Shown: positions 42,356 to 61,103 of the stretch, piece by piece
Layout: every line of letters starts with the position of its first letter
Numbering within the stretch: position 1 is the stretch's first letter
DNA from: Muribaculaceae bacterium Isolate-104 (HZI)
GTDB lineage: Bacteria; Bacteroidota; Bacteroidia; Bacteroidales; Muribaculaceae
Assembly: GCA_003762715.1 (NCBI GenBank)
Contig: RIBJ01000032.1
Location: 62,001-126,000 of the forward strand
Length of the DNA stretch: 64,000 bases
Reading direction: 5' to 3'
Made by a program: the position numbers and the translations under genes
The notes under the pieces: model-generated
The model's input: the letters and a program-made list of their open reading frames with translations, nothing else
What the model was told of the DNA's origin: nothing
Databases searched by the model: none

Positions 42356-42946
42356 ATGTCTGATATATATATATATATTGACAAAACCTCAATAATAGAC
42401 CCCGGCGCGGTAATAGGTGGCGGGTGCCGTATATGGCACTTCTGCCATATAATGAGCGAGGCCGTTATCGGGGAGCAATGCAGTCTGGGCCAGAACGTAA
42501 TGGTGGGGCCGGGTGTGAGACTCGGACGCAACGTCAAGGTACAGAACAATGTTTCGATATTTTCCGGAGTAACGGTCCAGGACAATGTGTTTCTGGGTCC
42601 GGGATGTGTTTTTACCAACGTCCGCAATCCGCGCAGCGAGATATGCCGCCACGGAAGTTTTGAAAAGACGCTTGTGAAAGAGGGCGCCACTATAGGAGCG
42701 AACGCCACTATACGCTGCGGCGTTACAATCGGGCGCTACGGCTTTGTAGGAGCCGGCAGCGTGGTGACCTCGGATGTGCCTGACTATTGCATGGTGGCGG
42801 GAGTCCCTGCGCGCCCGGTGGGGTGGATGAGCCGGCACGGATGCAGGCTGGAATTTGACTGTAACGGCCTCGCTCAATGTCCGGAATCAGGGGCAAGATA
42901 TAAAAACATCAATGGATTAGTGAGTGAAGTACAAGATGACTTTTAA
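42356..42946 (+). CDS. WbpD/WlbB-like UDP-amino-sugar N-acetyltransferase
   Basis: A 196-residue left-handed beta-helix acetyltransferase. Hexapeptide repeats run through the protein ([60 protein letters not shown]). The end has the typical [20 protein letters not shown]. Close resemblance is to WbpD/WlbB, which acetylate the 3-amino group of UDP-GlcNAc(3NH2)A using acetyl-CoA. The other three enzymes of that route are in the same operon, which supports the assignment. Confidence 0.82.
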
Positions 42947-44231
42947 TATATACGGCCGTCTGAACTCGCGCCAGACCTCGGTGGCGGTGATAGGCATGGG
43001 TTATGTGGGCAGGCCGCTTGCCCTGGCGCTGTCGCGCCACTTCAATGTCGTAGGGTATGACGTCAATCCACACGCAACGGATTGCATTTCAGAGCCTATA
43101 TCGCCACTCAAGCCGGAGAGCGGCGATGCCGGACGGCTCGAGCTGACTGATTGCGAAGGAGATATTGCCAACGCGTCGTTCTACATAATAACTGTGGGCA
43201 CTCCGGTGGACAGCAGCAATAATCCCGACCTGAGTCAACTTCTGGCAGCGACAAGAACTGTCGGAGGGATGCTTAAGCCGGGCGACTATGTGGTTTATGA
43301 ATCAACGGTATTTCCGGGGTGTACAGAGAATGTGTGCGTGCCTCTGCTCGAGGAGATTTCGGGGCTTAAGTGCGGCAGTGAATTCAAGGCCGGATATTCA
43401 CCGGAGCGTATAAATCCCACAGATGCCCTTCACGAGGTTGCGAATATATCAAAAATCATTGCGGGCTGCGATGAGGAAGCCACAGCGGAAATAGAGCGTG
43501 TTTACAGCCATGCGGTAAGCGCTCCGCTCCACAAAGCGCGCAGCATACGTTCGGCCGAGGCGGCAAAGCTTCTGGAAAACATACAGAGGTGCATGAACAT
43601 AGCCCTGATGAATGAAATGTCGGTGACCTTTGGCGGGATGGGGATAGATTTTGGCGAAGTTGTTGAGCTTGCCGCAACCAAATGGAACTTCACCCCCTAT
43701 TCGCCGGGGCTTGTAGGCGGTCATTGCATACCGGTGGACCCTTATTACCTGATGTCGGAGGCCCGACGTGCCGGAATAGACATGCCGTTAACCCGCATGG
43801 GATGCTCTGTGAACGAGATGATGCCCGGCTACGTGGCCGATTCGGTGGCGGCGCACATACCGGCCGATGCCCGGAAGAAGGGACGTCCGCGCGCGTTGGT
43901 GCTTGGAATTGCGTATAAACGTAACTCAGACGACGTACGAAACAGCGGCGTGGCAGAGATGATAGCCCTGCTGGAGGCTCACGGCATAGACTGTGATGTA
44001 GTGGACCGGATGGTGGACGGCGAGGCTGTGAAGCGCATGTATGGTCTGGAGCTGAAGGAGGGTCCGGAAGGTGTGTATGACGCTGTGATAGTAGCCGTGA
44101 ACCATGACTGCTATACGGGTCTGGACGAAACGTGGTTTGAACGGTTTTCATCGGGTCCTGAAACCCTGCTTGCGGATCTGCACGGAGTGTACCGCGGAAA
44201 AGTGACTAATCTGAAATACTGGGCTTTCTGA
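42936..44231 (+). CDS. UDP-GlcNAc 6-dehydrogenase (WbpA-like nucleotide-sugar dehydrogenase)
   Basis: From ATG 42936 the 431-residue enzyme has the NAD motif GMGYVG at residues 20-25. The catalytic Cys264 is in [12 protein letters not shown], and the C-terminal domain has [16 protein letters not shown]. The family oxidises C6 of a UDP-HexNAc to the uronate in two NAD+ steps; with WbpB, E and D genes beside it the expected substrate is UDP-GlcNAc. A GTG at 42924 would add four residues. It overlaps the acetyltransferase gene by 11 bp and the next gene by 1 bp. Confidence 0.88.
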
Positions 44232-46501
44232 TGGCGGGGGCTACGGCGGCATACTTCCAGGCTCTGCGCGGGGGGCGTTCGGCCGAGGCCGTGAAGGTGG
44301 GCGTGTCAAAGGGGGTGTCGATGTGCCTGTCGGTATTCATAGCCATGGCTTTGAGCCGTATGATGGAGCCGGAGGCTTACGGCACATATCTTCAGGTATT
44401 ATATGTTTACGGCACCCTGCTGGTGCTTTTCTCGCTGGGCCTGCCGTCGTGCTATTCATATTTTCTGGCGAGAACGGCTCCCGGCGAAGGACGGGCCGTA
44501 GTGTTGAAGCTTACGGTGATGAGCATCGCCATGGGGTGTGTGTTTTCTCTCACGCTGTTTGTTTTTTCAGACGGTTTGGCCGGGCTGCTGGGCAATGCGG
44601 CTCTAGGACCGTGTCTGCGTCTGTTTTCGGTGGTGCCGGTGGCCATGATGCCGGTGGCCGGCGTGGAGGGAGTGCTGATGGCCTGCAGGCGCTCGGGTCA
44701 GCTGGCTCTTTACGTGTGTATGAGCCGATTGCTGACGCTGCTGTGTGTGGTGTGCGCAGCCCGGATGTGCGGAGGCAGTCCGCAGGCGGTTACCGGAGCC
44801 TTTGCTGCGGCATCGGTGGTGTCGGCGGCGTGGGGTCTCTGGCTTTCCTACCGGCCGTTCATCGGTGTAGCTCAGTCGGGGAGCGGCCCGGGATACGGCG
44901 ATTTCCTGAGGTTTGCGCTGCCGGTGTTCTATGCGGGGATATATGGCTTTGTGATATCTTCGGCGAGCCGGTTTTTTGTAAGCCGCTATTTCGGAGCAGG
45001 CGAATTTGCGGTGTTTACCAATGGATTTCGTGAGATGCCGCTGGCGTTGGTAGTGATGTCGGCCGTTGGGGCTGTGCTTTTGCCGGAGCTTTCGAGACTG
45101 TCTATGACTGACAGGGAGGAATGCATAGGCTTATGGCGCCGGTCGGTTTATAAGTCGGCAATGGTGGTGTGGCCTGTGGCTGTGTTCTGTATGGTTTTTG
45201 CACCTGAGATTATGACGACGCTTTTCGGCGAGAGCTACCGTTGCGGAGCTGTATTGTTTCGGTTGTCTTCGCTGATATGTTTTGTGTTGGTGGTACCGTT
45301 TTTCCCTCTTATGACAGCACTGGGGCTCTCGCGCGGCTTTGCAAGGGCGCACCTGGTGACGGCAGTCGCGCTTGTGGGTCTTGACTGGCTGGCGGTGATG
45401 TATTTTCCATCGCTTACGGTTATTGCGGCAGTGTCGGTCTTCACAAGAATTATGTGTGTGGTGTCTCTCCTGCTGATGGTATCGGGTGCCACTGGTCTAA
45501 GTGTGGCGCAGCTGCTGCCACTGCGTCTGGTGTGGCGTCTGCTGCCGGTGTCGGGGGTGTTGTGCTGTATGGCCAAGGCGGTGACGGCGTTGTGCGGAAT
45601 AGAGAGCGCCCCACTTACGCTTGCCGTGGCGCTTGCCGTGGCTGTTCCCGCGTATCTGTTGCTCAGCCGAGTCTTCACAGATGAAAATCATGAAGAACAT
45701 GAAATAGGCGAAAGTGTGCCGGAGGCTCCAGAAACTATGCCGGAAAGTAGCCTTCCTGCCGTATCGGTGATAGTGGCATGCTATAACTCCGAGAAAACTA
45801 TTGGAGCAATGATAGAATCGGTATTGTCGCAAAGCTATACCGACTGGGAGCTCATAATAACCGATGACGGCTCTACGGACGGCACACCGGAGGTGATAAG
45901 ACAATATGCGGCCCGCGACAGCAGGATTATAGCCATGCGGACCGATATCCGCTACGGTGGCCCTTCTGAGGCGCGAAACATGGGCCTTGACAGGGCTTTG
46001 GGACAGTATATAGCATTTTTAGACAGCGATGACCTATGGTTGCCCGACAAACTAAGGGTGCAGATGGATTTTATAGAGGCCAACGGCTATGATTTCGTAT
46101 ATTCGTATTATGAGAAGATTTCCGGGGGAAATTCCAGAAGCGGGCGTATAGTGGCGACCAAGAAGATGGTAGGTTACAACGATATACTGAAGTCGAACCA
46201 TATTCCATTCCTGACAGCGATAATAAAGCGGAGTGTTGTCGGCAACACCCGATTCAAGGATATCACACAGGAAGATTTTTGTTTCTGGCTCGACATTCTC
46301 AAGAAAGGAGTGACAGCACATAACCAGTGTGTAGTGACGGCGTTATACAGAGTATCTAAAGGCTCCCGGTCGTCCAACAAGTTTAAGATGGCACACTGTT
46401 ACTGGCATGTAATCAGACACCATCAGCGCACGGGACTTGCACTCAGTTGCCGGTGTATGGTGACCTATGCCGTAGAGGGTTTAAGAAAGTATATGATATA
46501 G
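44231..46501 (+). CDS. polysaccharide flippase fused to GT2 glycosyltransferase
   Basis: One uninterrupted 756-codon frame. Residues 1 to about 480 form a Wzx/PST-type flippase with 12-14 hydrophobic helices (VSMCLSVFIAMALSRMMEPE is helix 1). A charged linker (TDENHEEHEIGESVPEAPE) follows. Residues about 508-756 are a GT2 domain: VSVIVACYNSEKTIGAMIES, the DDGSTDGTPEV loop and LDSDD with the DxD at D598/D600. Flippases move lipid-linked repeats across the inner membrane, while GT2 enzymes add sugars on the cytoplasmic face. A fusion could hand the finished repeat directly to the flippase. I know of no standard family with this order. Confidence 0.88.
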   Translation: MAGATAAYFQALRGGRSAEAVKVGVSKGVSMCLSVFIAMALSRMMEPEAYGTYLQVLYVYGTLLVLFSLGLPSCYSYFLARTAPGEGRAVVLKLTVMSIAMGCVFSLTLFVFSDGLAGLLGNAALGPCLRLFSVVPVAMMPVAGVEGVLMACRRSGQLALYVCMSRLLTLLCVVCAARMCGGSPQAVTGAFAAASVVSAAWGLWLSYRPFIGVAQSGSGPGYGDFLRFALPVFYAGIYGFVISSASRFFVSRYFGAGEFAVFTNGFREMPLALVVMSAVGAVLLPELSRLSMTDREECIGLWRRSVYKSAMVVWPVAVFCMVFAPEIMTTLFGESYRCGAVLFRLSSLICFVLVVPFFPLMTALGLSRGFARAHLVTAVALVGLDWLAVMYFPSLTVIAAVSVFTRIMCVVSLLLMVSGATGLSVAQLLPLRLVWRLLPVSGVLCCMAKAVTALCGIESAPLTLAVALAVAVPAYLLLSRVFTDENHEEHEIGESVPEAPETMPESSLPAVSVIVACYNSEKTIGAMIESVLSQSYTDWELIITDDGSTDGTPEVIRQYAARDSRIIAMRTDIRYGGPSEARNMGLDRALGQYIAFLDSDDLWLPDKLRVQMDFIEANGYDFVYSYYEKISGGNSRSGRIVATKKMVGYNDILKSNHIPFLTAIIKRSVVGNTRFKDITQEDFCFWLDILKKGVTAHNQCVVTALYRVSKGSRSSNKFKMAHCYWHVIRHHQRTGLALSCRCMVTYAVEGLRKYMI

Positions 46502-46536: not shown

Positions 46537-47727
46537 ATGAAATACATGCTGAAATATTACGTGATATCTCTTCTCAGGCTGTTGATGACGGCAGGGTGTG
46601 TTTTTCCGGTGAGCCGTCGCCGGGTATTGCTATCGTCCGACGAAGGTTCGTGCTACAGCTGTAATCCCAGGTCGATTTTCGAGGCTATGTACCGGTTGTA
46701 TGGCGACAAGTTTGAATATGTATGGGTGCTTAATGAGGCATCGAAACTCCCCGGCGCATTCAGAGGCAAGGTAAGAACCGTAAGATTTCTGTCGTTGAGG
46801 CATGTGTATTATCTGCTTACATCGGGTTTTATCATAAGCAATCTGGGAGTGGAACCGTTTCTGCCCCGGCGCAGAGGCCAGACTGTAATCAGCGCCGAGC
46901 ACGGCGGAGGATCGTATAAGCGCATGTATATGAGGCGGCGAATGTTTTCGGCTGATGAATGGCGCTATATCATGCGTATGCGTAAGCTCAGAGGCATGCT
47001 CACAGACATAGTGCTGGCCAGCTGTGAGAAGCAGTTGCATGAACATGCCGAAGACTATGGAATAGCGCCCGAGCGTTTTATCCGGTCGGGATTTCCCCGC
47101 AACGACCGGTTCTTCGCCACAGACGAAACAGACCTACAGGCACGTAAGGGCGAGTTTCGCGCTCGATATGGTATTGCCCCAGGCAATCTGATGGTGCTTT
47201 ATGCTCCTACTTTCAGGGGCACGCACCGTCACCGCCAACATTCCTGCAATGATGTGTGTGTGAAGTCAGTGGCGGTATCGCTGCGGCGCAGGTTCGGGAA
47301 GGAGGTAACGTTTCTCTACAGACGGCACCGCCATTCATTACCCGGAACCGACAGCGGGTTTCCGGTGGTGGATGTGACAGACTATCCTGACATGCAGGAT
47401 TTGCTTGAGTTTGCCGATGTGCTGATAACGGACTACTCTTCTTCGATATGGGATTTCGGCATAACGTTGAAACCAGCTTTTTTATATGTGCCGGATCTGG
47501 AACGATTCGAATCAGAGCGCGGATTCTATACCCCTATAGAGCAGTGGCCATATCCCTATTCCACAACAGTGGAGGAATTGTGCACGCTGATAGAGGGCTA
47601 TTGCAGGGAGAAGAGTATAGAAAGGCTTGGCTCGCACCAGAAGGAGATTGGGACGTTTGAGAACGGTGGTTCAGCCCAATATGTGGCGGCTGTGATTAAT
47701 GATATTTTCATGAAATTGTGTGAATGA
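46537..47727 (+). CDS. CDP-glycerol glycerophosphotransferase family protein
   Basis: A 396-residue protein of the TagB/TagF-type fold. The C-terminal GT-B half has the family signature FADVLITDYSSSIWDFGITL and PDLERFESERGFYTPIEQWP; SAEHGGGSYKRMYMRRRMF lies in the N-terminal half. Family members transfer glycerol phosphate or another polyol phosphate to a sugar or polymer, so a phosphodiester-linked substituent is likely. No CDP-glycerol synthesis gene is in the window. A weak hydrophobic stretch near the N-terminus may associate it with the membrane. Confidence 0.85.
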   Translation: MKYMLKYYVISLLRLLMTAGCVFPVSRRRVLLSSDEGSCYSCNPRSIFEAMYRLYGDKFEYVWVLNEASKLPGAFRGKVRTVRFLSLRHVYYLLTSGFIISNLGVEPFLPRRRGQTVISAEHGGGSYKRMYMRRRMFSADEWRYIMRMRKLRGMLTDIVLASCEKQLHEHAEDYGIAPERFIRSGFPRNDRFFATDETDLQARKGEFRARYGIAPGNLMVLYAPTFRGTHRHRQHSCNDVCVKSVAVSLRRRFGKEVTFLYRRHRHSLPGTDSGFPVVDVTDYPDMQDLLEFADVLITDYSSSIWDFGITLKPAFLYVPDLERFESERGFYTPIEQWPYPYSTTVEELCTLIEGYCREKSIERLGSHQKEIGTFENGGSAQYVAAVINDIFMKLCE

Positions 47728-48896
47728 AAGCAAAGGGTCTGTACTTTTACGGTTATACAGAAACGAGTATGCTGTTCAGGGATACCGGTGTTGAACAGAA
47801 AGTGGAGGGGCAGATAAAGGCACTCTGTAGAGCGGGTTTGTCATGCCGTCAGATAAAGTTTGAGGGGAGGGTGAGACCGTCAGTCATCAGGAAGGTGGCG
47901 ATGCGTCTTCCTTTTCGGGGGCCAATGTGTGACTGGCTGTCGGAATACAGGCCTGAGTTTGACGGCTATGACTTCTATTATATAAGACGTCCGAATTTTT
48001 TATCGCTACTCCATCTGCTGGCAATACGCAAGATTCGCAGGCGCAACCCCGATGCAGTGGTTCTTTATGAATTATGGACCTATCCGATAAAAAAGGAACT
48101 AACCAAACGGTGGCAGGATTATCCGCTGTGGTGGAAAGAGTCGTTTTATATGCCGCTGATGAAACGTTATATTGACAGATTCGTGGTGGTGGGAGATTTC
48201 ACCAAGATTTCAGGTGTACCTGCCATACCGATGAGAAACGGCATTGATATGAGCCTTATCGCGCCATGCGAAGGTCGAATTCCCGACGATGGGACAATCC
48301 ATATAGCGGCGGTAGCAAAACTGAGTGTATGGCATGGATACGACCGTTTTATAAGGGGGCTGCATGAATACTACAGAACCGGAGGTAAGCGGAAAATAGT
48401 GATGCACATAGTAGGAGACGGATATTGCCGGCAGGCTCTTGAAGAAATGAGGCTACGGCTCGGGCTTGAGGAGAATGTGGTAATGCACGGATATAAGACC
48501 GGCAGCGAACTCGATGCCGTGTTCGAAAGGTGTAGTCTGGGGCTGATATCTCTTGCCACGCAGGATAAGGACATATTTGTGCATTCCACGCTCAAAAGCC
48601 GCGAATATTTGGCAAAAGGGTTGCCGACCATCGCTACCGGCATTACGGATGTTTTTGTCGGGACGACCTATAAGTATAACCTGGAACTTCCCATGGACGA
48701 GAAGATTACGGATATCAGGCGGGTGGTGGATTTTCATGATGAAATCTATGGGTCACGGCCAAGAACGCAGGTGATTGCCGAGATAAGAGCTTTCGCGGAG
48801 CGGAATATAGCTGTTGAAATCACTATGGAACCGATAATAAACTATATTACAGAAACAGTTCGTAGCCGCAGGAAGGGGAAAAACGATGAAGTATGA
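47724..48896 (+). CDS. GT4-family glycosyltransferase
   Basis: A 390-residue retaining GT-B transferase. The N-terminal domain shows FLSLLHLLAIRKIRRRNPDA and VVVGDFTKISGVPAIPMRNG; the C-terminal nucleotide-sugar domain has HIVGDGYCRQALEEMRLRLG, VVMHGYKTGSELDAVFERCS and STLKSREYLAKGLPTIATG, where the Glu of KSREY is the usual EX7E position. Donor and acceptor cannot be read from the sequence. ATGA overlaps join it to genes on both sides. Confidence 0.87.
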   Translation: MKAKGLYFYGYTETSMLFRDTGVEQKVEGQIKALCRAGLSCRQIKFEGRVRPSVIRKVAMRLPFRGPMCDWLSEYRPEFDGYDFYYIRRPNFLSLLHLLAIRKIRRRNPDAVVLYELWTYPIKKELTKRWQDYPLWWKESFYMPLMKRYIDRFVVVGDFTKISGVPAIPMRNGIDMSLIAPCEGRIPDDGTIHIAAVAKLSVWHGYDRFIRGLHEYYRTGGKRKIVMHIVGDGYCRQALEEMRLRLGLEENVVMHGYKTGSELDAVFERCSLGLISLATQDKDIFVHSTLKSREYLAKGLPTIATGITDVFVGTTYKYNLELPMDEKITDIRRVVDFHDEIYGSRPRTQVIAEIRAFAERNIAVEITMEPIINYITETVRSRRKGKNDEV

Positions 48897-49903
48897 TTGA
48901 GTTGGGAACGGCCAAGGTTGCCAATAAGCTGATTGATAAGATGGGACAGAACAAAAATAAATTTGCAATTATAGGGGTGGGCGGTTACATAGCTCCGCGC
49001 CACCTCGGGGCAGTTAAGAACACGGGCGGCAGCGTAGTGGCGGCTTGTGATGTATCGGACAGTGTGGGAATTATTGACTCGTACTTTCCGGATGCCGACT
49101 TCACCACCGATCCGAAGGCTTTTCTCTCGGGTCTTAAGGAATGTGGTGCCGATTATCTTACGGTATGCACCCCCAATTTTCGGCATTGCAGTCATTCCGA
49201 AACCGCTATGAAGGCAGGGCTTGACGTGATATGCGAGAAGCCGGTGGTAATGACATGCGAGGAGCATTACAGGCTTACGTGCGCTGAGGCCGAGACGGGA
49301 AAAAGGGTGTTTCCCGTGCTGCAGATGAGGCTTCATCAGGAGGCAGCAAGAATCAGGGAAAAGATACAGAACGACGGCAGCGGAAAGAGCCATGAGGTGG
49401 AGCTGGTGTATATAGCGCCACGAGGCAAATGGTATGCGGCATCGTGGAAGGGCGACGTGAGCAAAAGCGGCGGCGTACTGACCAACATAGGAATTCATTT
49501 TATAGACCTGCTGCACTGGCTGTTCGGCCATCGCCGTGATTTTATACTCCACTATTCGGCGCCCGACTGTGTATCCGGCGTTTTAGAACTTGACAGGGCG
49601 CGGGTGAGCTTTTTTCTGAGTGTGAATCCGAGTCATCTGCCGGAGAATCACACAGGTGCGTGGCGGCATTTTACAATAGACGGCGATTCGTTTGATTTTT
49701 CGGCCGGTTTTGCAAATCTTCATGACCTTACTTATAATGAAATTCTTGCGGGCAGGGGATTCTCGCTGGCAGACACGTTTGACGCCATAGAAACGGTGGA
49801 GGAAGCGCGCCACCTTGCCATAACTCATACGGCAAGCGATTATCACCCTCTGCTGAGAAGGGTGGTGGAAGCAGGATGCGTAAACATAAAACCGATGTTA
49901 TGA
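48893..49903 (+). CDS. WbpB/WlbA-like UDP-GlcNAcA 3-dehydrogenase
   Basis: A Gfo/Idh/MocA oxidoreductase of 336 codons from ATG 48893; the family-like part starts at FAIIGVGGYIAPRHLGAV, so ATG 48941 is an alternative start. Other signatures: DSVGIIDSYFPDADF, CTPNFRHCSHSETAMKAGLD, VICEKPVV and NIGIHFIDLLHWLFG. WbpB oxidises C3 of UDP-GlcNAcA and works together with the aminotransferase WbpE; the two genes are adjacent and coupled here (ATGA). Confidence 0.87.
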   Translation: MIELGTAKVANKLIDKMGQNKNKFAIIGVGGYIAPRHLGAVKNTGGSVVAACDVSDSVGIIDSYFPDADFTTDPKAFLSGLKECGADYLTVCTPNFRHCSHSETAMKAGLDVICEKPVVMTCEEHYRLTCAEAETGKRVFPVLQMRLHQEAARIREKIQNDGSGKSHEVELVYIAPRGKWYAASWKGDVSKSGGVLTNIGIHFIDLLHWLFGHRRDFILHYSAPDCVSGVLELDRARVSFFLSVNPSHLPENHTGAWRHFTIDGDSFDFSAGFANLHDLTYNEILAGRGFSLADTFDAIETVEEARHLAITHTASDYHPLLRRVVEAGCVNIKPML

Positions 49904-51045
49904 TAAGAATGGTGGAGCTTTACGGCCAGTACCTGACGGTGAAGGACGAGGTGGATGCCGCTGTGGAAGAGGTGATGAAGAGTTCGGCCTTTATACGTGG
50001 CCCTCAGGTGAGGCTGCTGGAAGAGGAGCTTGCGGAATATGTGGGAGTGGACCACTGCATAACCTGCGGCAACGGCACAGATGCCCTGCTTCTGACATTT
50101 GCCGCCATGGGCATAGGTCGGGGCGACGAGGTGATAGTGCCTTCGTTTACATTCGGGGCTGTGGCGGAGAGTGTGGCGCTCACGGGTGCTACTCCGGTGT
50201 TTGCCGATGTGAATCCGCTTACGTTCAATATAGATGCGCAAAGCGTGGAGCGGCTGATGAGCCCGCGCACACGGGCTATTGTGCCGGCCCACATGTTCGG
50301 GCAGCCGTGTGATATGCCCCGGTTGCGCAGTATCGCCCAGGCAGGCGGCGTGGCTATTGTGGAGGATAACACACAGTCTTTTGGCGCGGAGTGCCGTATG
50401 GGAGAATCGGCCAAAGCGAAGACCGGCAGCATAGGGCTGGCCGGATGTACATCTTTTTTTCCTACAAAGGTGCTGGGGTGTTACGGCGACGGCGGGGCGG
50501 TGTTTACCGACAACGCAGAGCTTGCGTCAAAGATACGGCAGCTTGCCAACCATGGCCAGAAGCCGAAATACCATTACAGGAGTCTGGGAATGAATTCGCG
50601 CCTTGACACGCTTCAGGCGGCTGTGCTTCGCGTGAAGCTGAGACATCTCGACGAATGGATAGCGGCGCGGGTAAGAGCCGCCAAGCGCTACGACGAGGCT
50701 TTGGCGGGAGTAGCCGGGATTGTGCTGCCGATGGTCTCTGAAGGAGTAACGCATGTGTATCACCAATACACGCTGAAAATGATACCTGAATTGCGCGACG
50801 GTCTGAGGGAGTTTTTGGGCAGTCAGGGAATAGAGACAATGGTGTACTATCCTGCGCTGCTCAACGAACAGTATGCCTATAGAGAGATAAGCCGGAGCGA
50901 CATTTGTATGGACGGAGCCCGGCAGTTGCCCGGCAGTGTGGTGTCGCTCCCAATATGCAGCCACCTTGAAATGAGGTCCCAGACAAAAGTTGTTGCGGCC
51001 ATAAAAGAGTTTATGTCAAAGGGCGCCGGTTCTCGGGGGATGTGA
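49900..51045 (+). CDS. WbpE/WlbC-like sugar aminotransferase (DegT/DnrJ/EryC1)
   Basis: From ATG 49900 the PLP enzyme has 381 residues. YVGVDHCITCGNGTDALLLT gives the phosphate-binding region, VAIVEDNTQSFGAECRM the cofactor aspartate region and FFPTKVLGCYGDGGAV the Schiff-base Lys190. It aminates C3 of the 3-keto intermediate made by WbpB, using glutamate. The ATG overlaps the WbpB stop; a start at 49876 would need a 28-bp overlap. It closes the operon: after its stop there are only 72 bp to the recombinase. Confidence 0.9.
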   Translation: MIRMVELYGQYLTVKDEVDAAVEEVMKSSAFIRGPQVRLLEEELAEYVGVDHCITCGNGTDALLLTFAAMGIGRGDEVIVPSFTFGAVAESVALTGATPVFADVNPLTFNIDAQSVERLMSPRTRAIVPAHMFGQPCDMPRLRSIAQAGGVAIVEDNTQSFGAECRMGESAKAKTGSIGLAGCTSFFPTKVLGCYGDGGAVFTDNAELASKIRQLANHGQKPKYHYRSLGMNSRLDTLQAAVLRVKLRHLDEWIAARVRAAKRYDEALAGVAGIVLPMVSEGVTHVYHQYTLKMIPELRDGLREFLGSQGIETMVYYPALLNEQYAYREISRSDICMDGARQLPGSVVSLPICSHLEMRSQTKVVAAIKEFMSKGAGSRGM

Positions 51046-51117
51046 AGGTATCATGTGTCATAATGCGCTGTAATTTAGGTGGACAGGACTTCGCAGGTGA
51101 GCCTAGCACGGACGAGA

Positions 51118-52506
51118 ATGTCGGAGATTTCCGCTTTTGTATTGGAAATTCCGTTTCATGTCCGCACCAAGGATTTGAAGAAGGCCTCTGCGACCCTCTT
51201 TATCTGCATCCATACCCGCAAGGTTGACGTGCTTGTTTCTACCATGCTTCAGCTTCACGCCAAGCCGACACAGATTGAAGGCATCGTAAAGGCGCATCTT
51301 GCAAAGGTGAACTTTGACCGTGAGGCTCTCGACATGGATGTGCGCTTTATCTCCGAGCCGGAGAAAGTGAACGCTGAACGTCGGGCGATGGAGGAAGCCG
51401 CCGAGGCTGAACGTAAGGCTATCGCCAAACGTAAGGCGGCGAAAGAAAAAGCCCGCAAGAAAGCCGAGGAAAATAAACGCATCGAGGACGATAAGAACCG
51501 CCTTATCTGGCCGTTCCTCGTTCAGTTTGTCGATGACATCAAGAGCGGGGCGCGAAAGATTGGCAGTGACGACTATGCCCCCGGCACCTGCAAGGCATGG
51601 AAAAGTTTTATCGGTGTTTATGAAGGTTTTGACCCATTGCACAAATTCGGGTGGGCGGATATTGACCGTGCGTTTGTGTCGCGCTACATCAACTATTTGC
51701 AGAAGCACGGTTACATGGCAAAGGTTGTCAACAAGCATCTGACAAATTTGAAGGCTCTTATCAACGCGGCATTCATTGACGGCGTACACGACAACCAACG
51801 TGCGGCAGCTCTCATTGTAAAGAAGAAGATTGAAGACCGCGACAAGGCTGTTGAGATCTATCTCACCGAGGAGGAATTGCAGGCTCTCTATGAAATGCCG
51901 CTGACAGGAAAGAAAGAGCATATCCGCGATGTTTTTCTCATTGGCTGCTATACCTGTCAACGTGTAAGTGATTACAACAACCTCAATGCCGACAACTTTG
52001 AGACTACCCGAAAGGGAACGCGCATAATCCGTCTTGTCCAGCAAAAGACTAAGACCTAGGTGACTATACCCATTCTCAACGAGAACCTTATCACCATCTG
52101 CGAGAAATATGGCTACAACATTCCGAAAGCCAACGAGCAGGTGCTGAACCGATATATTAAGGATATTCTCAAAGACCTGTCGGAGCAGTTGCCATCACTG
52201 AAAGAGAAGGTGCCGACCAAGCTCACAATGAAACAGAAGGAGGCGTTGAGGAAAGAGAAGAAGGAACCGGAGACCGACCTCAACGGCAATGTGATTGTGC
52301 CACGCTATGAATGTGTGACGAGCCACACTGCCCGACGCACCGGCATCACCAACATATATCTGAGCCACAAGTACACCATCCTACAGATGATGCACGTCAG
52401 CGGCCACAAGACACAAAAGACCTTCATGGACTACATCAAGCTATCCTCCGAGGAGATTGCCGACGAAATCGCCGCCATGTCCAAGAAGGACAACGAGCTG
52501 TGGTAG
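51118..52506 (+). pseudogene. tyrosine recombinase interrupted by an in-frame TAG
   Basis: The frame is continuous from ATG 51118 to 52506 except for one TAG at codon 314 (52057-52059). Before the stop: MSEISAFVLEIPFHVRTKDL, a Lys/Glu-rich coiled coil (RKAIAKRKAAKEKARKKAEE), the SAM-like core-binding domain and the first catalytic Arg (GCYTCQRVSDYNNL). After it: VTIPILNENLITICEKYGYN, the HxxR box SHTARRTG, and VSGHKTQKTFMDYI with His and nucleophile Tyr. TAG probably replaced AAG (KTKT-stop-VTIPIL). The product would lack HxxR and Tyr and be inactive. Confidence 0.82.
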
Positions 52507-52602: not shown

Positions 52603-53610
52603 ATGACCTCCCACGCTTCCCGTAAGATTAGCGCACCCGGGGAGGTCTTCGAGTTTTATATGGACTACACAAAACGCCCACTTACCTTGCATCAGCAGGT
52701 TGAAAAACTGCGTAGCCGTGGGTTGCTCATTGACGACGAGCAACTTACGGAACGTTATTTGTCAAATATCAGCTATTATCGTCTCAGAGCATACACGTAT
52801 CCATTTCAGGACAATACAAATCCGAAAGCAGACCATAAATTCAAGAAAGACGATATCCATTTCTCCGATATTGTCGATTTATATTGTTTTGATAGAAGAC
52901 TCAGATCTTTAATGTTTAATGCGATTGAGAAAATTGAAGTCGCAGTAAGGGCTAAAATTGTACAGGCTTATTCCGAAGCTACAGGGAATAGCCATTGGTT
53001 CAACGACCGTAATCTATATAAGCATAAGGATATCCTTGACAGAAATGGGCAGCCAACAACGGCTTATGATCTTCTGATGAAGGATGTCGAAGGTGAAATT
53101 AAGCGGAGTAATTAAGATTTCATCAAGCATTACAATAACAAGTATGACAACCCTCCTATGCCTCCTGCATGGATGACGCTTGAAGTCTTGTCTCTTGGCA
53201 CATTAAGCAAACTGTATCAACTTCTAAAGAAATCTCCGCAGAAGAAGTCTATAGCCAAGCAATTTGGTCTGAATGACGATAGAGTATTCGCCAACTGGCT
53301 TCATGCAATTGCCGTATGGCGAAACTGTTGCGCACATCATAGCCGTGTGTGGAATAGAAGATGTATTATCAATCTTCAGATGCCCAAGAATACTGACTTT
53401 CCATTTCTTGACAAGCAAACCTTAAATACATTACATCCCAATAAGGTTTTCACAGCCCTATGCTGTATTAAATATATAAGCAATATCATAAGTCCTGGCA
53501 GTGATTTGAAAAGGAATATTCTCTCTATAATTGGTGACGGAGGAAATCTTTTGAATTTGAGCGAAATGGGATTCCCAAAGAATTGGAAATTTCTTGATGT
53601 ATGGAAATAA
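52603..53610 (+). pseudogene. Abi_2 (AbiD/AbiF-like) abortive-infection protein interrupted by an in-frame TAA
   Basis: The frame from ATG 52603 runs to 53610 with one TAA at codon 171 (53113-53115); reading past it gives DFIKHYNNKYDNPPMPPAWM, which fits the family. The N-terminal half has LTLHQQVEKLRSRGLLIDDE, YRLRAYTYPF and YCFDRRLRSLMFNAIEKIEV. The C-terminal half carries the HEPN motif RNCCAH (R240 to H245). Abi_2 proteins are HEPN RNases that block phage growth. GAA to TAA is the simplest cause. It is next to the broken recombinase, so the old element has decayed. Confidence 0.8.
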
Positions 53611-53928: not shown

Positions 53929-55071
53929 ATGGGTAGAAAAAGAACATCAAAAGTAGATAAAAGTCCGTACAAGTTACGCCGTCGCAAACTTGCGGACGGG
54001 CGCGAGTCGCTTTTCATAGACCATGCCATTAACGGGAAACATGAGTATGAGTTCCTTAAACTGTATCTTCTGCCCGAAGCAACCGAAAAGGCAAAGCGCG
54101 AGAATGCCAGAACACTGCGCAGGGCTGAGGAAATCATCATCGAAAAATGCAACGCCCATATACAAGGTATATCGGAGGCAATAGAGACACAAGACAAATC
54201 CGGAATCCTTCTATGTGATTATATCGACATCCTGATTTCCTATTATAAGGAGCGCGGTATGAATACCTACAAGGCTCTTGTCACGGCACGAAGAAATTTT
54301 GAAGTTTTCAGGCCGGGCACCAGACTGTGTGATGTGGATAAGAAATTCTGCATTGATTTTAAAGACTGGGTTTTATCTTATCGCAGTCCTAAAACCGGCA
54401 GGGTGCTGGCAAGGAAAACCGCTTTTGGATATTTCTGGCATCTTGCGGATATTCTCAACAACGCCATGCGTATGGGGTATATCAAGAGCAATCCGTGGAC
54501 GCTTCTTAATACTGCCGACAAGATCACTGAACCGCAGTCCACTTGTAGTTTCCTCACTCTTGATGAGGTCGGCATACTGGAAGCCACACCATATAAACAT
54601 GACCATATCAGACGGGCATTCCTGTTCTGCTGTTTCAGCGGGCTTCGTATTTCCGATATGCTGAATCTCCGGTGGCAAAATATTTCTAAAAGCGGAGAAA
54701 CGGTAGTGTTGTCGTTTATAATGAAGAAGACAAGAAAGTATGTATCGGTTCCCCTCTCATCAAAAGCGGTGGAATATCTGCCGGAAAGGGGTGTCGCGCC
54801 ATCCGACAGAGCTGTCTTTGATACTCTGCCGAGCAAGACCAGAATTGGGAAACATCTTAAAAAATGGACTAAACAAGCCGGTATAGGCAAGGAGATACAT
54901 TTCCACATGTCGCGCCATACGTTCGGAACAATGCTGATGACTGCCGGGGTTGACCTCTATACGGCAAGCAAGATGATGGGACATTCCGATGTGCGCGCGA
55001 CCCAGGTTTACGCAAAAATTATCGACAGTAAAAAAGTCGAGGCGATGAATCTCCTTGACAAGGTTTTATAA
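53929..55071 (+). CDS. tyrosine recombinase/integrase (first of a tandem pair)
   Basis: A 380-residue integrase with an arm-binding N-terminus (SPYKLRRRKLADGRESLFID), a SAM-like domain (about 95-200) and a full catalytic domain: Arg240 in FSGLRISD, H326-x-x-R329 in HMSRH, His352 in MGHSDVRATQVY and nucleophile Tyr361. It resembles integrases of Bacteroides mobilizable and conjugative elements. Its stop abuts the ATG of a paralogue (TAAATG), so the two are co-translated. Confidence 0.93.
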   Translation: MGRKRTSKVDKSPYKLRRRKLADGRESLFIDHAINGKHEYEFLKLYLLPEATEKAKRENARTLRRAEEIIIEKCNAHIQGISEAIETQDKSGILLCDYIDILISYYKERGMNTYKALVTARRNFEVFRPGTRLCDVDKKFCIDFKDWVLSYRSPKTGRVLARKTAFGYFWHLADILNNAMRMGYIKSNPWTLLNTADKITEPQSTCSFLTLDEVGILEATPYKHDHIRRAFLFCCFSGLRISDMLNLRWQNISKSGETVVLSFIMKKTRKYVSVPLSSKAVEYLPERGVAPSDRAVFDTLPSKTRIGKHLKKWTKQAGIGKEIHFHMSRHTFGTMLMTAGVDLYTASKMMGHSDVRATQVYAKIIDSKKVEAMNLLDKVL

Positions 55072-56301
55072 ATGACAAAACTAAATAATATGACCTCTCC
55101 CAAAAAGAAAACAAAACTCAAAGAACCTGTCAGAGTGCGCACCAAGAAACTCGCTGACGGTTCAGAATCCTTCTATCTTGACATATATGTCAATGGGAAA
55201 CGCAGTTATGAGTTTCTTAAACTCTATCTGCTTCCTGAAGTCAGCGCGAAAGTCAAGGAGCAGAACAGGGCGACCCGTGCCGCAGTGGAAGCCATAAAAT
55301 CCCAGCGTATAATAGACATAACCAACGGAAAGGCCGGAATAAGGCGCAATGCCGGGTGGCAGAAACTTCTGCTGACGGACTGGCTCGACAAATTCAAGGC
55401 CGCGCAGGAACGCAAGGGCATACGCAATATAGCACTTTTGGGCAGTGTTATTAAAGTCGTGACACTGTACGGCAAAAAGACCCGCATGGGTGATATAGAC
55501 AAGAAATGGGCACTCGGCTTCATCGACTGGCTGCAGAACTCATACAACAGGCAGAACAAGGTGAGCGAGGGAATTAGGAACAGTGCATACGCGCCAAAGG
55601 AAGGCCGTATATCGCAAGGCACGGCGGTGAGCTATATCTCCCAGCTTTCGATTGCGCTCAATGCCGCTGTCCGTGCGGAAGTACTCGGCGAAAATCCGTT
55701 CATGCTGCTTTCTGCGGCAGAACGTGTGAAAAAGCCCGAATCACAACGACAGTTCCTGACGATTGAAGAATTAAAGAAAATCACAGCCACCGATTGCTAT
55801 AATCCGGTTGTGAAACAGGCATACCTGTTTTCATGCTATTGCGGACTTAGAATGAGCGACATTTACGCCTTGAAATGGAAAGATGTGCAGATGAATGACG
55901 GCGGATACCTGCTGTCGGTTGTAATGAAGAAGACATCGACACCTGTTTATATCCCGCTTTCCAACAATGCGCTCGCATGGCTTCCTGAAAGAAATGAAGA
56001 TGAAAACTCCCCCATTTTCTCAGGGCTGCCGTCTCTGATGACAATCAACAAGATTCTCAAGGTTTGGGCAAAATCCGCCGGAATAGACAAACATCTGACT
56101 TTTCACACATCCCGCCATACATTCGGAACACTCATGATGACCGTAGGAGCAGACCTTTATACGACCTGTAAGCTGATGGGGCATTCCGATGTCCGCACAA
56201 CGCAGATTTACGCAAAAATTGTTGACAGTAAGAAGATTGAGGCTGTCAACCTCGTTGACAAGATGTTTGAGAAGAGAAATGAAAAAGAAGAAAACGACTA
56301 G
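55072..56301 (+). CDS. tyrosine recombinase/integrase (second of a tandem pair)
   Basis: A 409-residue paralogue of the preceding integrase, with the same arm domain (VRTKKLADGSESFYLDIYVN), Arg in CYCGLRMSDIYAL, HTSRHTFG and MGHSDVRTTQIYAKI. The C-terminal ends of the two are nearly the same (IDSKKVEAMNLLDK and VDSKKIEAVNLVDK). All catalytic residues are kept in both, so they may act as a heteromeric recombinase or on the two ends of the element. It ends with TAG. Confidence 0.93.
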   Translation: MTKLNNMTSPKKKTKLKEPVRVRTKKLADGSESFYLDIYVNGKRSYEFLKLYLLPEVSAKVKEQNRATRAAVEAIKSQRIIDITNGKAGIRRNAGWQKLLLTDWLDKFKAAQERKGIRNIALLGSVIKVVTLYGKKTRMGDIDKKWALGFIDWLQNSYNRQNKVSEGIRNSAYAPKEGRISQGTAVSYISQLSIALNAAVRAEVLGENPFMLLSAAERVKKPESQRQFLTIEELKKITATDCYNPVVKQAYLFSCYCGLRMSDIYALKWKDVQMNDGGYLLSVVMKKTSTPVYIPLSNNALAWLPERNEDENSPIFSGLPSLMTINKILKVWAKSAGIDKHLTFHTSRHTFGTLMMTVGADLYTTCKLMGHSDVRTTQIYAKIVDSKKIEAVNLVDKMFEKRNEKEEND

Positions 56302-56342
56302 AAATGTCATTGCCTGACAGCAAGTTACATTTGCACAAGGCT

Positions 56343-56393
56343 AACATTTTGAGAATCGTGCCAAATACAGTCTAAAACATTTTGAGAATCGTG
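56343..56393 (+). repeat. two 18-bp direct repeats over the AAA ATPase promoter
   Basis: AACATTTTGAGAATCGTG occurs at 56343-56360 and 56376-56393, period 33 bp. The second copy supplies the TTTG of the -33 box. Likely a regulator-binding pair. Confidence 0.65.
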
Positions 56394-56411
56394 TGAGATT
56401 GATTATCTTTG
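56381..56411 (+). promoter_or_regulatory. promoter of the AAA ATPase operon
   Basis: TTTG at 56381-56384, 19-nt spacer, TATCTTTG at 56404-56411. It excludes the TTG at 56409 as a start and supports ATG 56436. Confidence 0.7.
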
Positions 56412-56435
56412 CACCTGTTAAACAATGGCTATTAC

Positions 56436-57767
56436 ATGATATTCAAGCGAAAGATATACCGGGAACTGCAACAATGGAAAGAATCGGACAACGGTTCCAC
56501 AGCCTTGTTGATAAAAGGCGCGCGACGGGTCGGAAAGTCAACGATTGCCGAGGAATTTGCACGCGCCGAGTATGACAGTTACATACTGATTGATTTTGTC
56601 GAGTGCAGCGACGAGGTACGGGATTTGTTCAATGACGTGTCAAACCTCGATTTCATATTCATGCGCCTGCAGATGATATATCATGTTGAGCTGATTGAAC
56701 GGAAGTCTGTCATCATCTTCGATGAGGTGCAGAACTGCCCCAAGGCACGACAGGCCATAAAATATCTCGTTAAAGACCGTCGTTATGACTATATTGAGAC
56801 CGGCTCGCTGATTTCTATAAGGAAAAATGTTGATGGGATACTGATACCCAGCGAGGAACTTACGGTCAATATGTACCCGATGGATTACGAGGAGTTCAGG
56901 TGGGCTTTAGGTGACAGAGTGTCCGTACCTATGCTTGAGGAATGTTTCAGAGACCGAAAATCTCTTGGGGATGTAGCCAACCGCTCACTCATGCGCGATT
57001 TCCGGCTGTATATGCTTGTGGGAGGTATGCCGCAGGCCGTCGCCACTTATATAGAGACGAACAATATGGAGAAGGTCGATCGCACGAAACGGGGAATAAT
57101 CACTCTCTATGAAAACGACTTCAACCGCATAGACCCATCCGGCAACGCATCGCTGCTGTTCCATAACATTCCGTCGGAATTGACACGCAATTCAAACCGT
57201 TATATGGCGTGGAGTTCAACAGGCGGGGCAAGAAGTCACGAGCTTGCGGACGTGCTGTCGGAAATGAAGGAGTCAATGACGGTCAATATGTCATACCATG
57301 CCAACGATCCGGGTGCCGGGATGTCGTTGCACCATGACACAAGCCGTTTCAAGATGTTTGTCGGTGACACCGGACTTTTCGTAACACTTGCATTTTGGGA
57401 TAAAAAATTCACACAGAATGTAATATATGAAAAACTGCTGAGCAACAAACTCAGTGCCGACCTCGGCTATGTTTACGAGAATGTGGTGGCGCAGATACTT
57501 AAGGCCGCAGGCCACGAACTGCACTACTATACATTTCCGACAGAGAGCGGAAAACACAATTACGAGGTTGATTTCTTGATTTCAGACGGAGACAAGGTTA
57601 GCCCAATCGAGGTGAAATCGTCCGGTTACAAGGCTCATGCCTCATTGGATGCTTTCTGCTCTAAATTTTCGTCAAGAATTAAAAATGAATATCTTGTATA
57701 TACGAAAGATATGCGCAAGGATGGCACTGTATTGTGTCTCCCGGTATATATGACAATGTTTTTATGA
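56436..57767 (+). CDS. AAA ATPase with DUF4143 domain
   Basis: A 443-residue protein from ATG 56436. Walker A is GARRVGKST (residues 28-36), Walker B SVIIFDEVQNCP, then sensor-like IETGSLISIRKN. The DUF4143 half follows (ADLGYVYENVVAQILKAAGH), ending in a PD-(D/E)xK-like segment (YEVDFLISDGDKVSPIEVKS). The D-x-I-E-V-K arrangement is the usual nuclease-like core of this family. These ATPases are common in bacteria and poorly understood. It is the first gene of a three-gene ATGA-coupled operon inside the mobilizable unit. Confidence 0.88.
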   Translation: MIFKRKIYRELQQWKESDNGSTALLIKGARRVGKSTIAEEFARAEYDSYILIDFVECSDEVRDLFNDVSNLDFIFMRLQMIYHVELIERKSVIIFDEVQNCPKARQAIKYLVKDRRYDYIETGSLISIRKNVDGILIPSEELTVNMYPMDYEEFRWALGDRVSVPMLEECFRDRKSLGDVANRSLMRDFRLYMLVGGMPQAVATYIETNNMEKVDRTKRGIITLYENDFNRIDPSGNASLLFHNIPSELTRNSNRYMAWSSTGGARSHELADVLSEMKESMTVNMSYHANDPGAGMSLHHDTSRFKMFVGDTGLFVTLAFWDKKFTQNVIYEKLLSNKLSADLGYVYENVVAQILKAAGHELHYYTFPTESGKHNYEVDFLISDGDKVSPIEVKSSGYKAHASLDAFCSKFSSRIKNEYLVYTKDMRKDGTVLCLPVYMTMFL

Positions 57768-58387
57768 AGAAATCTATAAATATCGCAAACCGGCTCGATG
57801 AAGTCAATGGGATTGTTGCCGCTTGCAATGGTAGTACGTTGCCTTTTGAACAGGCGTATGAGCTTGCACGGTTCTACTACGACTTTCAGGACACCAATGC
57901 GCTTATAGCCGATGCGGAGGTTATGGCAGGTGAGGATTTGTCAGGATTACGTGAGATAGCTATTTCCCTCAAAGCAGAGACCACGACACTCCTTAATAAT
58001 ATAGGGCGGCTTGACGGCATTGATTTCCGGGGGATTGCCAACGCTCACTCCCGACATTACCATGCCATATTTCAAAAGGCTTCTGATGAACTTAACCCTT
58101 ACTGGAAACGGTACTGCGAGCTGAACCACCGCCTTGACTATCTACCTCTCGGCTCAAAAGAGTATGCCGAGGCTGAGAAGGAGTGCGATGCTGCAAAGGC
58201 GGAACATGACAGGCGTCAGACCGATGTCAGGAGAATATATGCTGAATACGAGCATGAGAACCGGCGCGCCGGGGATGTCTTTTCCCTCAAAGCCTCACAC
58301 CTGTATGCGCTTGCCACGAAACTGAACGGCATAGCCGGAAGTATTATAAACGACCTTGACCGCATGGAGAAAGGGGAAGGTCGATGA
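57764..58387 (+). CDS. unknown coiled-coil protein (207 residues)
   Basis: Starts at ATG 57764, overlapping the ATPase stop. All-helical and charged, with long heptad-like segments (PLGSKEYAEAEKECDAAKAE; SLKASHLYALATKLNGIAGS). No signal peptide, membrane segment or known motif. Coupled to both neighbours by 4-bp overlaps, so it probably acts with the ATPase. Family not recognised. Confidence 0.7.
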   Translation: MKKSINIANRLDEVNGIVAACNGSTLPFEQAYELARFYYDFQDTNALIADAEVMAGEDLSGLREIAISLKAETTTLLNNIGRLDGIDFRGIANAHSRHYHAIFQKASDELNPYWKRYCELNHRLDYLPLGSKEYAEAEKECDAAKAEHDRRQTDVRRIYAEYEHENRRAGDVFSLKASHLYALATKLNGIAGSIINDLDRMEKGEGR

Positions 58388-58794
58388 ACGGAGGTTTGTT
58401 GCTTGAAACCGCCAAGTGGCGTGATGTGGTTGAACTGGGCTTGTGCATGGCGATACACGATGTCTGCAACGACAGCCAGTTTGAGAACTGTACCCCTCTC
58501 GATTTTGCCAATTTCCTTAACGTAAGGGAAGAGGCAAAATCCATTGCCGTGCTGCCGAAGGAGAAACTGCGGGTCTGCTACATGGTCTTTGCCGTGGCGA
58601 GTAACATCAGCCCGAGGAAAGAGGCTGAGACATGGGCGCGGTTGTTCCTGCAACGCTGCGGCATCGCCAGGTCATACTACGACAAGCACCGTTCCGACAT
58701 CTGCGCCGGCCATGCCACCGAGGACAACCGGAATTACCGCAAATCCATTGATGAAGCCATAGAGGAATGGCGTTCAAGGCGCAGAATCCCGTAA
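58384..58794 (+). CDS. unknown protein (136 residues)
   Basis: Starts at ATG 58384, overlapping the stop of the coiled-coil gene. Helical, with several Cys residues and a basic tail (DEAIEEWRSRRRIP); KLRVCYMVFAVASNISPRKE is in its middle. Similar small proteins accompany Bacteroides mobile elements, but I cannot name the family. Last gene of the ATPase operon. Confidence 0.68.
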   Translation: MNGGLLLETAKWRDVVELGLCMAIHDVCNDSQFENCTPLDFANFLNVREEAKSIAVLPKEKLRVCYMVFAVASNISPRKEAETWARLFLQRCGIARSYYDKHRSDICAGHATEDNRNYRKSIDEAIEEWRSRRRIP

Positions 58795-58839
58795 TAATCC
58801 GGCTTATCCCCATTTACAACAGACATATTCGTTTTAACG

Positions 58840-58875
58840 ACGCACTATACGACTGAAATTCAGCGTATGGTGCGT
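58840..58875. repeat. 36-bp imperfect inverted repeat
   Basis: Left arm ACGCACTATACGACTGAA, right arm TTCAGCGTATGGTGCGT, one mismatch and one unpaired base, around a central CTGAAATTCAG. A TTTTT run lies 16-20 nt beyond on the + strand. It may end the ATPase operon or be a recombination or regulator site. Confidence 0.5.
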
Positions 58876-58909
58876 TTGTCATTTTTAACCTTTCCCCGTG
58901 AGACCCACA

Positions 58910-58939
58910 TTGTGCCACACGGGGACGGCTGTAATTTTG
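58910..58939 (+). promoter_or_regulatory. promoter of the excisionase-like gene
   Basis: TTG at 58910-58912, 19-nt spacer, TAATTTTG at 58932-58939. A short stem (CCCCGTG/CACGGGG, 58895-58925) spans the -33 region. Confidence 0.55.
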
Positions 58940-59018
58940 CATCGAAATCAAAAGGCTGACAAGTCTATCAATCAGCACATTCTAAAAACAAAGAATATCA
59001 ACTAAAAAACTTTTGTCG

Positions 59019-59258
59019 ATGCAGACTAAACGAAAACTTCTCAACTCTCAGGAAGCCGCAGACTATCTCGGCTTCTCCCTGTCGTACTTCCGCAAGATGA
59101 TGATGCGGCGCGTAATCCCCATGTACAAGCCGAGCGGAAAGATATGCTTCTTCGACCCCGATGACCTCGACGCATACCTCAAGAGCGTCCGCATATCCTC
59201 GCAGGACGAAATAGACGCCGAAGCCGCCCGCTATCTCGCGAACAAGAAGCCTCTTTAA
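59019..59258 (+). CDS. excisionase-family helix-turn-helix protein
   Basis: Seventy-nine residues from ATG 59019. LLNSQEAADYLGFSLSYFRK is the winged-helix MerR/Xis-like helix-turn-helix and YKPSGKICFFDPDDLDAYLK the wing and closing helix. In mobilizable elements such proteins bend DNA for excision and regulate transfer genes. It has its own promoter. Confidence 0.87.
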   Translation: MQTKRKLLNSQEAADYLGFSLSYFRKMMMRRVIPMYKPSGKICFFDPDDLDAYLKSVRISSQDEIDAEAARYLANKKPL

Positions 59259-59285
59259 CCCTCACAAATCAAATCATTAAAGACT

Positions 59286-59777
59286 ATGCCGACAGACATA
59301 ACAACCACGCCGGGAGGAAAGACCGGCAAATCATCGGATACCAAATCCAAAGAGTCAAAATCCGGGAATCAAAGGAAAACCCAAGTCATCATGGAGTTTC
59401 TTGGCGGATGTACCCCCTACGAGGCCGACGCACTCCGCTCCATGCTCTCGATTGCCGCAGGGAAAAGCACGTTGGAGACCATGCCGCAGTATGACCGCTC
59501 CGCACTCAACCGCTATCTCAACTTCGGATGCGACAAGGAAACCGGGGATGTGGACGGCATCCGCGCACATCGGCAGAAGCGGGCACTCATACTGATGAAA
59601 TCGGTGTCGCAATATGTAGGCAAGGAAGAGATAATAGACATCACCACAGCACTGCTTACAGTATCTTCCGACAGGCAGGACATACAGACGGTGTTGAACA
59701 ACCTCCCGAAATTGCAGACTACGGGTACCAATCATAATGCCGGAAACACGCCGTCTAATGCGCCGATGCAGAAATAG
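59286..59777 (+). CDS. mobile-element hypothetical protein (163 residues)
   Basis: A Lys/Ser/Thr-rich disordered N-terminus (TPGGKTGKSSDTKSKESKSG) leads into a helical domain (VIMEFLGGCTPYEADALRSM; RQKRALILMKSVSQYVGKEE). No family named; position 27 bp behind the excisionase-like gene suggests a role in excision or transfer. It ends with TAG. Confidence 0.7.
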   Translation: MPTDITTTPGGKTGKSSDTKSKESKSGNQRKTQVIMEFLGGCTPYEADALRSMLSIAAGKSTLETMPQYDRSALNRYLNFGCDKETGDVDGIRAHRQKRALILMKSVSQYVGKEEIIDITTALLTVSSDRQDIQTVLNNLPKLQTTGTNHNAGNTPSNAPMQK

Positions 59778-59985
59778 AGAATCATTGCCATCCCCTTTTC
59801 CCTCCGTTTTCATTGTTCCATATTCTTCAATTAGAAAATTATCGGAAGAAACACATGAAGAATATTCAAAAATGCAATCCACCATTATCAGAATATCATC
59901 GGAGTATGGGTTGAAAGACAGAAGGACAAGGAGACCGAAGTATAAAACCATCGTACATAAATCTCACTTTGTAAAAATCCAAATT

Positions 59986-60000
59986 TTGGCATTTTGCCAA
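59986..60000 (+). promoter_or_regulatory. small palindrome upstream of the winged-helix gene
   Basis: TTGGCA-TTT-TGCCAA, 28 bp before the ATG at 60028. It is a plausible operator, perhaps for the downstream DNA-binding protein itself. Confidence 0.35.
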
Positions 60001-60027
60001 TACACTATCTATAAGAAAACAAGGAAC

Positions 60028-60435: not shown

Positions 60436-60512
60436 GAACCGTATCAGATGTACCTCAAATCTTTGAGTTTTCAGGTGTGGAGACCGTAGTTTTTAGAAGT
60501 GTTGCGAGATAT

Positions 60513-60553
60513 GTTTTGGTGTTACACCCGGCTCCGCTCGGTTGCACCAAAAC
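60513..60553. other. candidate oriT of the mobilizable unit
   Basis: GTTTTGGTG (60513-60521) and CACCAAAAC (60545-60553) form a perfect 9-bp inverted repeat about 90 bp before the mobilization genes; inside it GGTGT-T-ACACC forms a second stem. A GC-rich stretch follows to about 60610. Position and structure match oriT regions of Bacteroides mobilizable elements; a nick site cannot be assigned. Confidence 0.6.
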
Positions 60554-60643
60554 GCCTCGCCCCTCCCTGCGGTCAGGGTCATGGCCGCTCGCAGGCTCGC
60601 ACCCGACAATCAGTTATACCAATCACGGGAAATCCGCTTATAT

Positions 60644-61099: not shown

Positions 61100-61103
61100 G
61101 AAC

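Follow-up and report, generated by a model that had tools for sequence, protein, structure and literature searches.

A flippase–glycosyltransferase gene fusion in a Muribaculaceae glycan cluster, probably formed by gene swapping

Synthesis of a lipid and its flipping across the membrane can reside in one protein. In the accounts of MprF available to us, an aminoacyl-phospholipid synthase and a flippase that serve the same lipid are domains of a single chain. Family 2 glycosyltransferase (GT2) domains are likewise found fused to GtrA-type domains, as in archaeal Dol-P-Man synthases, which attaches a GT2 to a membrane domain of several helices that may itself act in flipping, but GtrA is a small domain and not a flippase of the MOP superfamily. 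A literature search for GT2-GtrA fusions returned no paper. The DNA described here (the window) is a 64,000-nucleotide stretch of contig RIBJ01000032.1, positions 62,001 to 126,000, from Muribaculaceae bacterium Isolate-104 (HZI). One of its open reading frames, at 44231..46501 (+), encodes a flippase of the Wzx/MurJ type followed by a GT2, and is referred to below as the fusion. It joins two known families and was seen in one species only in the samples searched, and no Wzx-GT2 fusion appeared in the literature searched (open-licence papers).

A known system with similar gene content is that of Porphyromonas gingivalis, in which the consulted portions of the literature place the gene for Wzx (porS) next to wbpE (porR) and wbpS (PMC7468200). 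According to the same portions, WbpA, WbpB, WbpE, and WbpD together make UDP-GlcNAc(3NAc)A (PMC7468200, PMC4031482), and the wbp genes of P. gingivalis supply a linking sugar derived from GlcNAc(3NAc)A (PMC7468200, PMC4031482, PMC3684754).

The fused frame and its two domains

The presence of flippase and GT2 in one polypeptide is confirmed. As the initial annotation had stated, the frame is open throughout its 756 codons, with the Pfam domains in the order flippase, then GT2. The flippase half (44231..45664, +; residues 1–478, with the domain ending at about 484) matches PF13440 (Polysacc_synt_3) at residues 41–336 (1.9e-18; 67.2 bits against a cut-off of 23) and PF01943 (Polysacc_synt) at residues 25–290 (1.6e-12; 47.9 bits against a cut-off of 28.2). 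The GT2 half (45737..46501, +) extends from M503 to the end of the frame (254 residues, domain about 508–756) and matches PF00535 (Glycos_transf_2) over residues 512–639 at 1e-37, which is over the cut-off. Between the two lies the junction (45665..45736, +; residues 479–502), which stands where relatives have a C-terminal tail, 20–36 residues long after the last helix in the ten relatives with a complete end. The acidic character claimed for this linker is borne out, with 9 D/E and no K/R among the 26 residues from about 483 to 508.

Both halves appear intact. The GT2 had been called complete, and it does carry DDGSTDG at 545, LDSDD at 597, and QEDF at 680, the latter two preserving the DXD-type motif and the acidic catalytic site. 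Of the columns invariant in all other rows of the alignments, all 46 are retained in the flippase half (one cut-off row, L027, being excluded) and 64 of 65 in the GT2 half, while separate homologues put through the same test lose 0–5 and 0–3 columns, respectively. Decay of either half was therefore rejected. Since both halves are coherent domains, a chance open frame is excluded; stops lie around the junction in both other forward frames. A random in-frame junction of 20–25 codons at a G+C content of 0.47 would be open by chance in about 9–12% of cases, and the accidental in-frame joining of two adjacent genes is no rarity.

The AlphaFold2 model of the fusion, built from an alignment with an enlarged set of flippase rows, is confident, with pLDDT below 50 at residues 488–503. 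In structural comparison its flippase half resembles MurJ and WzxE and its other half the GT-A transferases. The 14 helices predicted for the flippase fit the 12- to 14-helix bundle of MurJ and WzxE, and a sequence search of solved structures with this half gave no match at E 1. The GT2 half fits both PF00535 and the GT-A fold. Its best NCBIfam model is TuaG (NF047683), matched over nearly the full length at 212 bits, but because the cut-off is 400 bits it was not filed as TuaG; a separate homologue in a family relative (locus L050) scores 216 bits against the same model. At E 0.001 the fusion has 5 Pfam and 20 NCBIfam matches, none of them to an MprF family. The activities of both halves would be those of their families, with the flippase assigned to the MOP superfamily (Wzx/MurJ type) and a polyprenyl-linked glycan expected as its cargo from the flanking glycan genes.

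Helix count and charge bias predict that the GT2 lies on the cytoplasmic side, where a linker some 25 residues long, flexible and acidic, would join it to the flippase. The initial annotation had named a periplasmic GT2 as the outcome that would speak against its reading, and this arrangement is not supported, as the 14 helices predict a cytoplasmic C-terminus.

Relatives of the two halves and the search for other fusions

Homologues were sought in 34 genomes of the genus, 397 of the family, and 393 of the order, three samples that overlap. The flippase search of the family sample gave 13 matches at 1e-4, ten of them strong (E ≤1.5e-74, the window's included) and three weaker, in frames of 488–498 codons (G055, G091, G119). 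A full wbpA/B/D/E-like set clusters with the flippase in all nine strongly matching family genomes besides the window's; in G016 the flippase and cluster are spread over two contigs, the second of which (L097) carries the flippase C-terminus. That terminus can be read in eight of the nine, the contig of G359 ending before it, and continues into a GT2 in none of the eight. Three genus relatives have another family 4 glycosyltransferase (GT4) after the flippase, followed in two of the three by another GT2. At the order level, three further strong matches (G741, G696, G467) are separate genes with no wbp match nearby, and G697 holds a weaker one (3.4e-37, frame of 513 codons).

The GT2 is likewise a gene of its own elsewhere. 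Among the 397 family genomes, 64 matched it at 1e-25, the window's included, and at the 12 best-matching places in other genomes (11 of them) the GT2 is always a separate gene. Eleven homologues are 46–57% identical to the GT2 of the fusion, and ten that were compared have 250–253 codons each, against the 254 residues counted from M503, the position at which these separate proteins start. In L050 (genome G168) the GT2 is the first gene of a run of three that is ordered as in the window, namely GT2, CDP-glycerol-type phosphotransferase, and GT4, with identities to the window's genes of 57%, 61%, and 65%, respectively. In two family genomes that carry both flippase and GT2, the genes are separate and distant, being 1.3 Mb apart in G087 and on different contigs in G168. 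The initial annotation's view that separate genes normally supply the two functions agrees with the close relatives read.

Among the matches listed in the genus, family, and order genomes, the flippase-GT2 domain order occurs only in the window's genome, in searches that would show a fusion only if its flippase or its GT2 were similar to the window's. No second species has the arrangement in the samples searched, so that an established fusion family was rejected. A PF13440 search of 365 phylum genomes, in which at most six candidates per genome were scored, found no frame longer than 624 codons among 150 listed matches; these are not of the window's flippase subfamily, and the fused flippase of the window itself (1.1e-19) fell beyond the threshold of that search. 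Viral contigs gave no match, and a further contig search yielded one relative from the genus, one distant GT2, and nothing else.

Several long frames came up as candidate fusions. L029, a 925-codon GT2 frame, overlaps a separate flippase frame. In a genus relative (L032:892-3375, +), another flippase and the GT2 behind it share a reading frame that three intervening stops interrupt, the apparent length of 842 codons having been counted across the stops; an ordinary gene order thus lies near such a fusion. L030, L031, and L033 were judged by reading to be GT2 proteins with other partners, and L034–L036 are separate GT2s. By BLAST, L096, a 616-codon GT2 frame from the order sample, has no flippase match; L062, a long GT2 frame from the family sample, has none either, and an 845-codon GT2 frame in the family genome G314 has a stop inside the match.

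Two other fusions involving GT2s were observed in the order sample. L094:1669-3546 (+) encodes a GT4-GT2 fusion of 625 codons, with a GT2 38% identical to that of the window. L095:1974-3908 (-), from Bacteroidales, carries a GT2 (36% identical) at the C-terminus of a PF00953 phosphotransferase of the WecA/MraY type, and so combines a GT2 with an initiating-type enzyme in a single polypeptide.

Origin of the fusion and alternative explanations

The fusion is probably a genuine, lineage-specific one that arose through a cassette swap in a Paramuribaculum-like member of the Muribaculaceae and tethers a cytoplasmic GT2 beside the flippase. A swap is proposed because the genus relatives hold other transferase genes after the flippase and L050 has the same run as the window. 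The three-gene run of GT2, CDP-glycerol-type phosphotransferase, and GT4 would have replaced the transferase gene or genes that genus relatives carry 3′ of the flippase. Comparison with these relatives suggests that the left junction fell just past the last membrane helix, so that the flippase tail and stop would have been lost and the GT2 would have come to lie in frame. In comparison with three genus relatives, the junction resembles neither their tails nor their intergenic DNA above the level of shuffled sequences, and it does not resemble the DNA preceding the L050 GT2 above that level either; a similarity of the linker to the relatives' sequences was accordingly rejected.

The predicted product is a 14-helix MurJ/Wzx-type flippase with the GT2 held on the cytoplasmic side by the flexible acidic linker, and its cargo would be a lipid-linked oligosaccharide, probably with a GlcNAc(3NAc)A-type sugar. 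Most likely, two ordinary steps, cytoplasmic sugar addition and flipping of the lipid-linked glycan, would take place close together and in a 1:1 ratio. Neither new chemistry nor obligatory coupling would be required. A cassette swap at the 3′ end of the flippase gene explains the fusion without selected coupling, and the joining of the two is most likely a by-product of gene swapping.

Several observations weigh against this account. The possible cassette relative L050 is only 57–65% identical, and its G+C content is much lower, at 0.36–0.41. The shift in G+C across the junction of the fusion is modest, from 0.585 to 0.478, and the swap rests on synteny. Furthermore, the fusion comes from a single assembly of one strain, in which a sequence error at the junction remains conceivable, and the wbp names are family-level matches aided by context, several NCBIfam equivalog cut-offs having been missed.

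It is possible, with clearly less confidence than we place in the swap, that ribosomes also start at M503 and release a separate GT2 of 254 residues, in which case the fused chain would be partly or wholly incidental. The coincidence of M503 with the start of the separate homologues fits such a start, as does a GGAGG (45721..45725, +) 11 nucleotides upstream of this internal ATG, a motif that also precedes the next gene. GGAGG occurs within 20 nucleotides upstream of 4 of the 88 internal in-frame ATGs of the cluster, M503 included. However, Shine-Dalgarno use is weak in Bacteroidota, and the A+T content before M503 (0.44) is lower than that before five of the six other start codons compared, which speaks against a strong start. 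Initiation at M503 would, moreover, leave the fusion product still made.

An unlikely alternative takes up the idea of the initial annotation and adds channelling to it: the last sugar would be added by the fused GT2, which would pass the finished unit directly to the flippase, and incomplete units would not be flipped. The predicted position of the GT2, tethered at the flippase on the side of the membrane where units are built, would suit this role, and MprF, in the accounts available, shows that a synthase and a flippase are workable in one chain. The available portion of a study of Salmonella reports that Wzx translocates incomplete O units poorly, and a membrane complex controlling O-unit synthesis is proposed there, though not shown (PMC4863624). 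Against such coupling stand the lack of a second fusion in the genome samples searched and the distance between the two genes in G087 and G168. In addition, similar GT2s are joined to quite different partners in L094 and L095, which suggests an accident-prone C-terminal add-on. A related form of the idea, in which the GT2 would add a late sugar to the undecaprenyl-linked oligosaccharide at the cytoplasmic entrance of the flippase to which it is tethered and thereby physically couple completion to flipping, is equally improbable, and coupling of this kind is unmatched for Wzx-type systems in the literature searched.

Least probable of all is an assembly or sequencing artefact, in which a missed stop or indel joins two separate genes: one wrong base could erase a stop or shift the frame in this single assembly (2.84 Mb, 80 contigs), but the contig is 181,553 bases long and the junction is far from its ends, the assembly is 99.97% complete with 0.27% contamination, and unrelated sequence has taken the place of the usual flippase tail, so that a single-base error would not suffice.

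With formation by a cassette swap as the preferred explanation, the swapping of glycan genes beside a conserved flippase can be seen to yield bifunctional proteins. Whether transferase and flippase make contact for the hand-over of finished lipid-linked repeat units is an unsettled question, for which the natural fusion is a ready test construct. As a biological device, the fusion would be a single case.

Gene neighbourhood and comparison with known systems

The fusion sits in a tightly packed cluster ordered wbpD-like, wbpA-like, flippase-GT2, CDP-glycerol-type phosphotransferase, GT4, wbpB-like, and wbpE-like. The first gene (42356..42946, +) encodes a hexapeptide acetyltransferase (PF00132, 9.2e-26), which we take to be WbpD-like from its context; it shares 75–80% identity with its syntenic counterparts in three genus relatives and 57–62% with those in six other members of the family. 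The WbpA-like UDP-sugar 6-dehydrogenase (42924..44231, +) scores 327 bits against TIGR03026 (cut-off 189.8) and 313 bits against the TviB equivalog, under that model's cut-off of 592. Downstream of the fusion, the second and third genes of the proposed cassette encode a CDP-glycerol glycerophosphotransferase-like protein (46537..47727, +; PF04464, 1.5e-56) and a GT4-type glycosyltransferase (47724..48896, +; PF13692, 3.4e-08). These are followed by a WbpB-like Gfo/Idh/MocA oxidoreductase (48941..49903, +; PF01408, 5.7e-15), whose open frame begins at 48893 and whose start was set to 48941 by comparison with relatives, and a WbpE-like DegT/DnrJ/EryC1 aminotransferase (49876..51045, +; PF01041, 1.1e-106).

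Beyond the glycan genes, an integrase appears to be cut in two at 51079-52506, where a frame with an integrase SAM-like domain is followed by a 148-codon frame that has no Pfam match and resembles a recombinase C-terminus by eye. The frames at 52603-53115 and 53158-53610 match positions 1–108 and 124–184 of the Abi_2 profile, and this gene also looks split. From 53929 to 62300, beside the cluster, lie two tyrosine recombinases, an AAA_14/DUF4143 protein, a NikA-like protein, and a relaxase. The genes of this last region are a possible agent of local rearrangement.

The flippase and wbp set (L098–L103, L026–L028, L097) may represent a pathway in gut commensals for an anchor like that of A-LPS (A-lipopolysaccharide). 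The type IX secretion protein SprA was present in 20 of 20 genomes tested and therefore does not single out those with the wbp-flippase cluster. The window's genome has three weak TIGR04183 matches and one PF02397 initiating transferase, which is on a different contig. With SprA in every genome tested, TIGR04183 weak, and PF02397 on another contig, a role like that of PorS in A-LPS is only a lead.

Compared with known MOP flippases (Wzx/WzxE, MurJ), the flippase of the fusion is 11–14% identical to the listed MurJ and WzxE structures, and whereas the known proteins end in a short tail, the fusion has a C-terminal GT2 instead. With TuaG-like GT2s the fusion shares the GT-A fold and motifs, and it differs from them in being attached to a flippase. 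The portions available for P. gingivalis PorS/Wzx show a wbp-gene neighbourhood like that of the window, a likeness of gene context, and do not describe this Wzx as fused (PMC7468200, PMC4031482, PMC3684754). MprF, finally, resembles the fusion in plan but is built from unrelated families, and it acts on phospholipids, whereas the fusion is expected to act on a polyprenyl-linked glycan.
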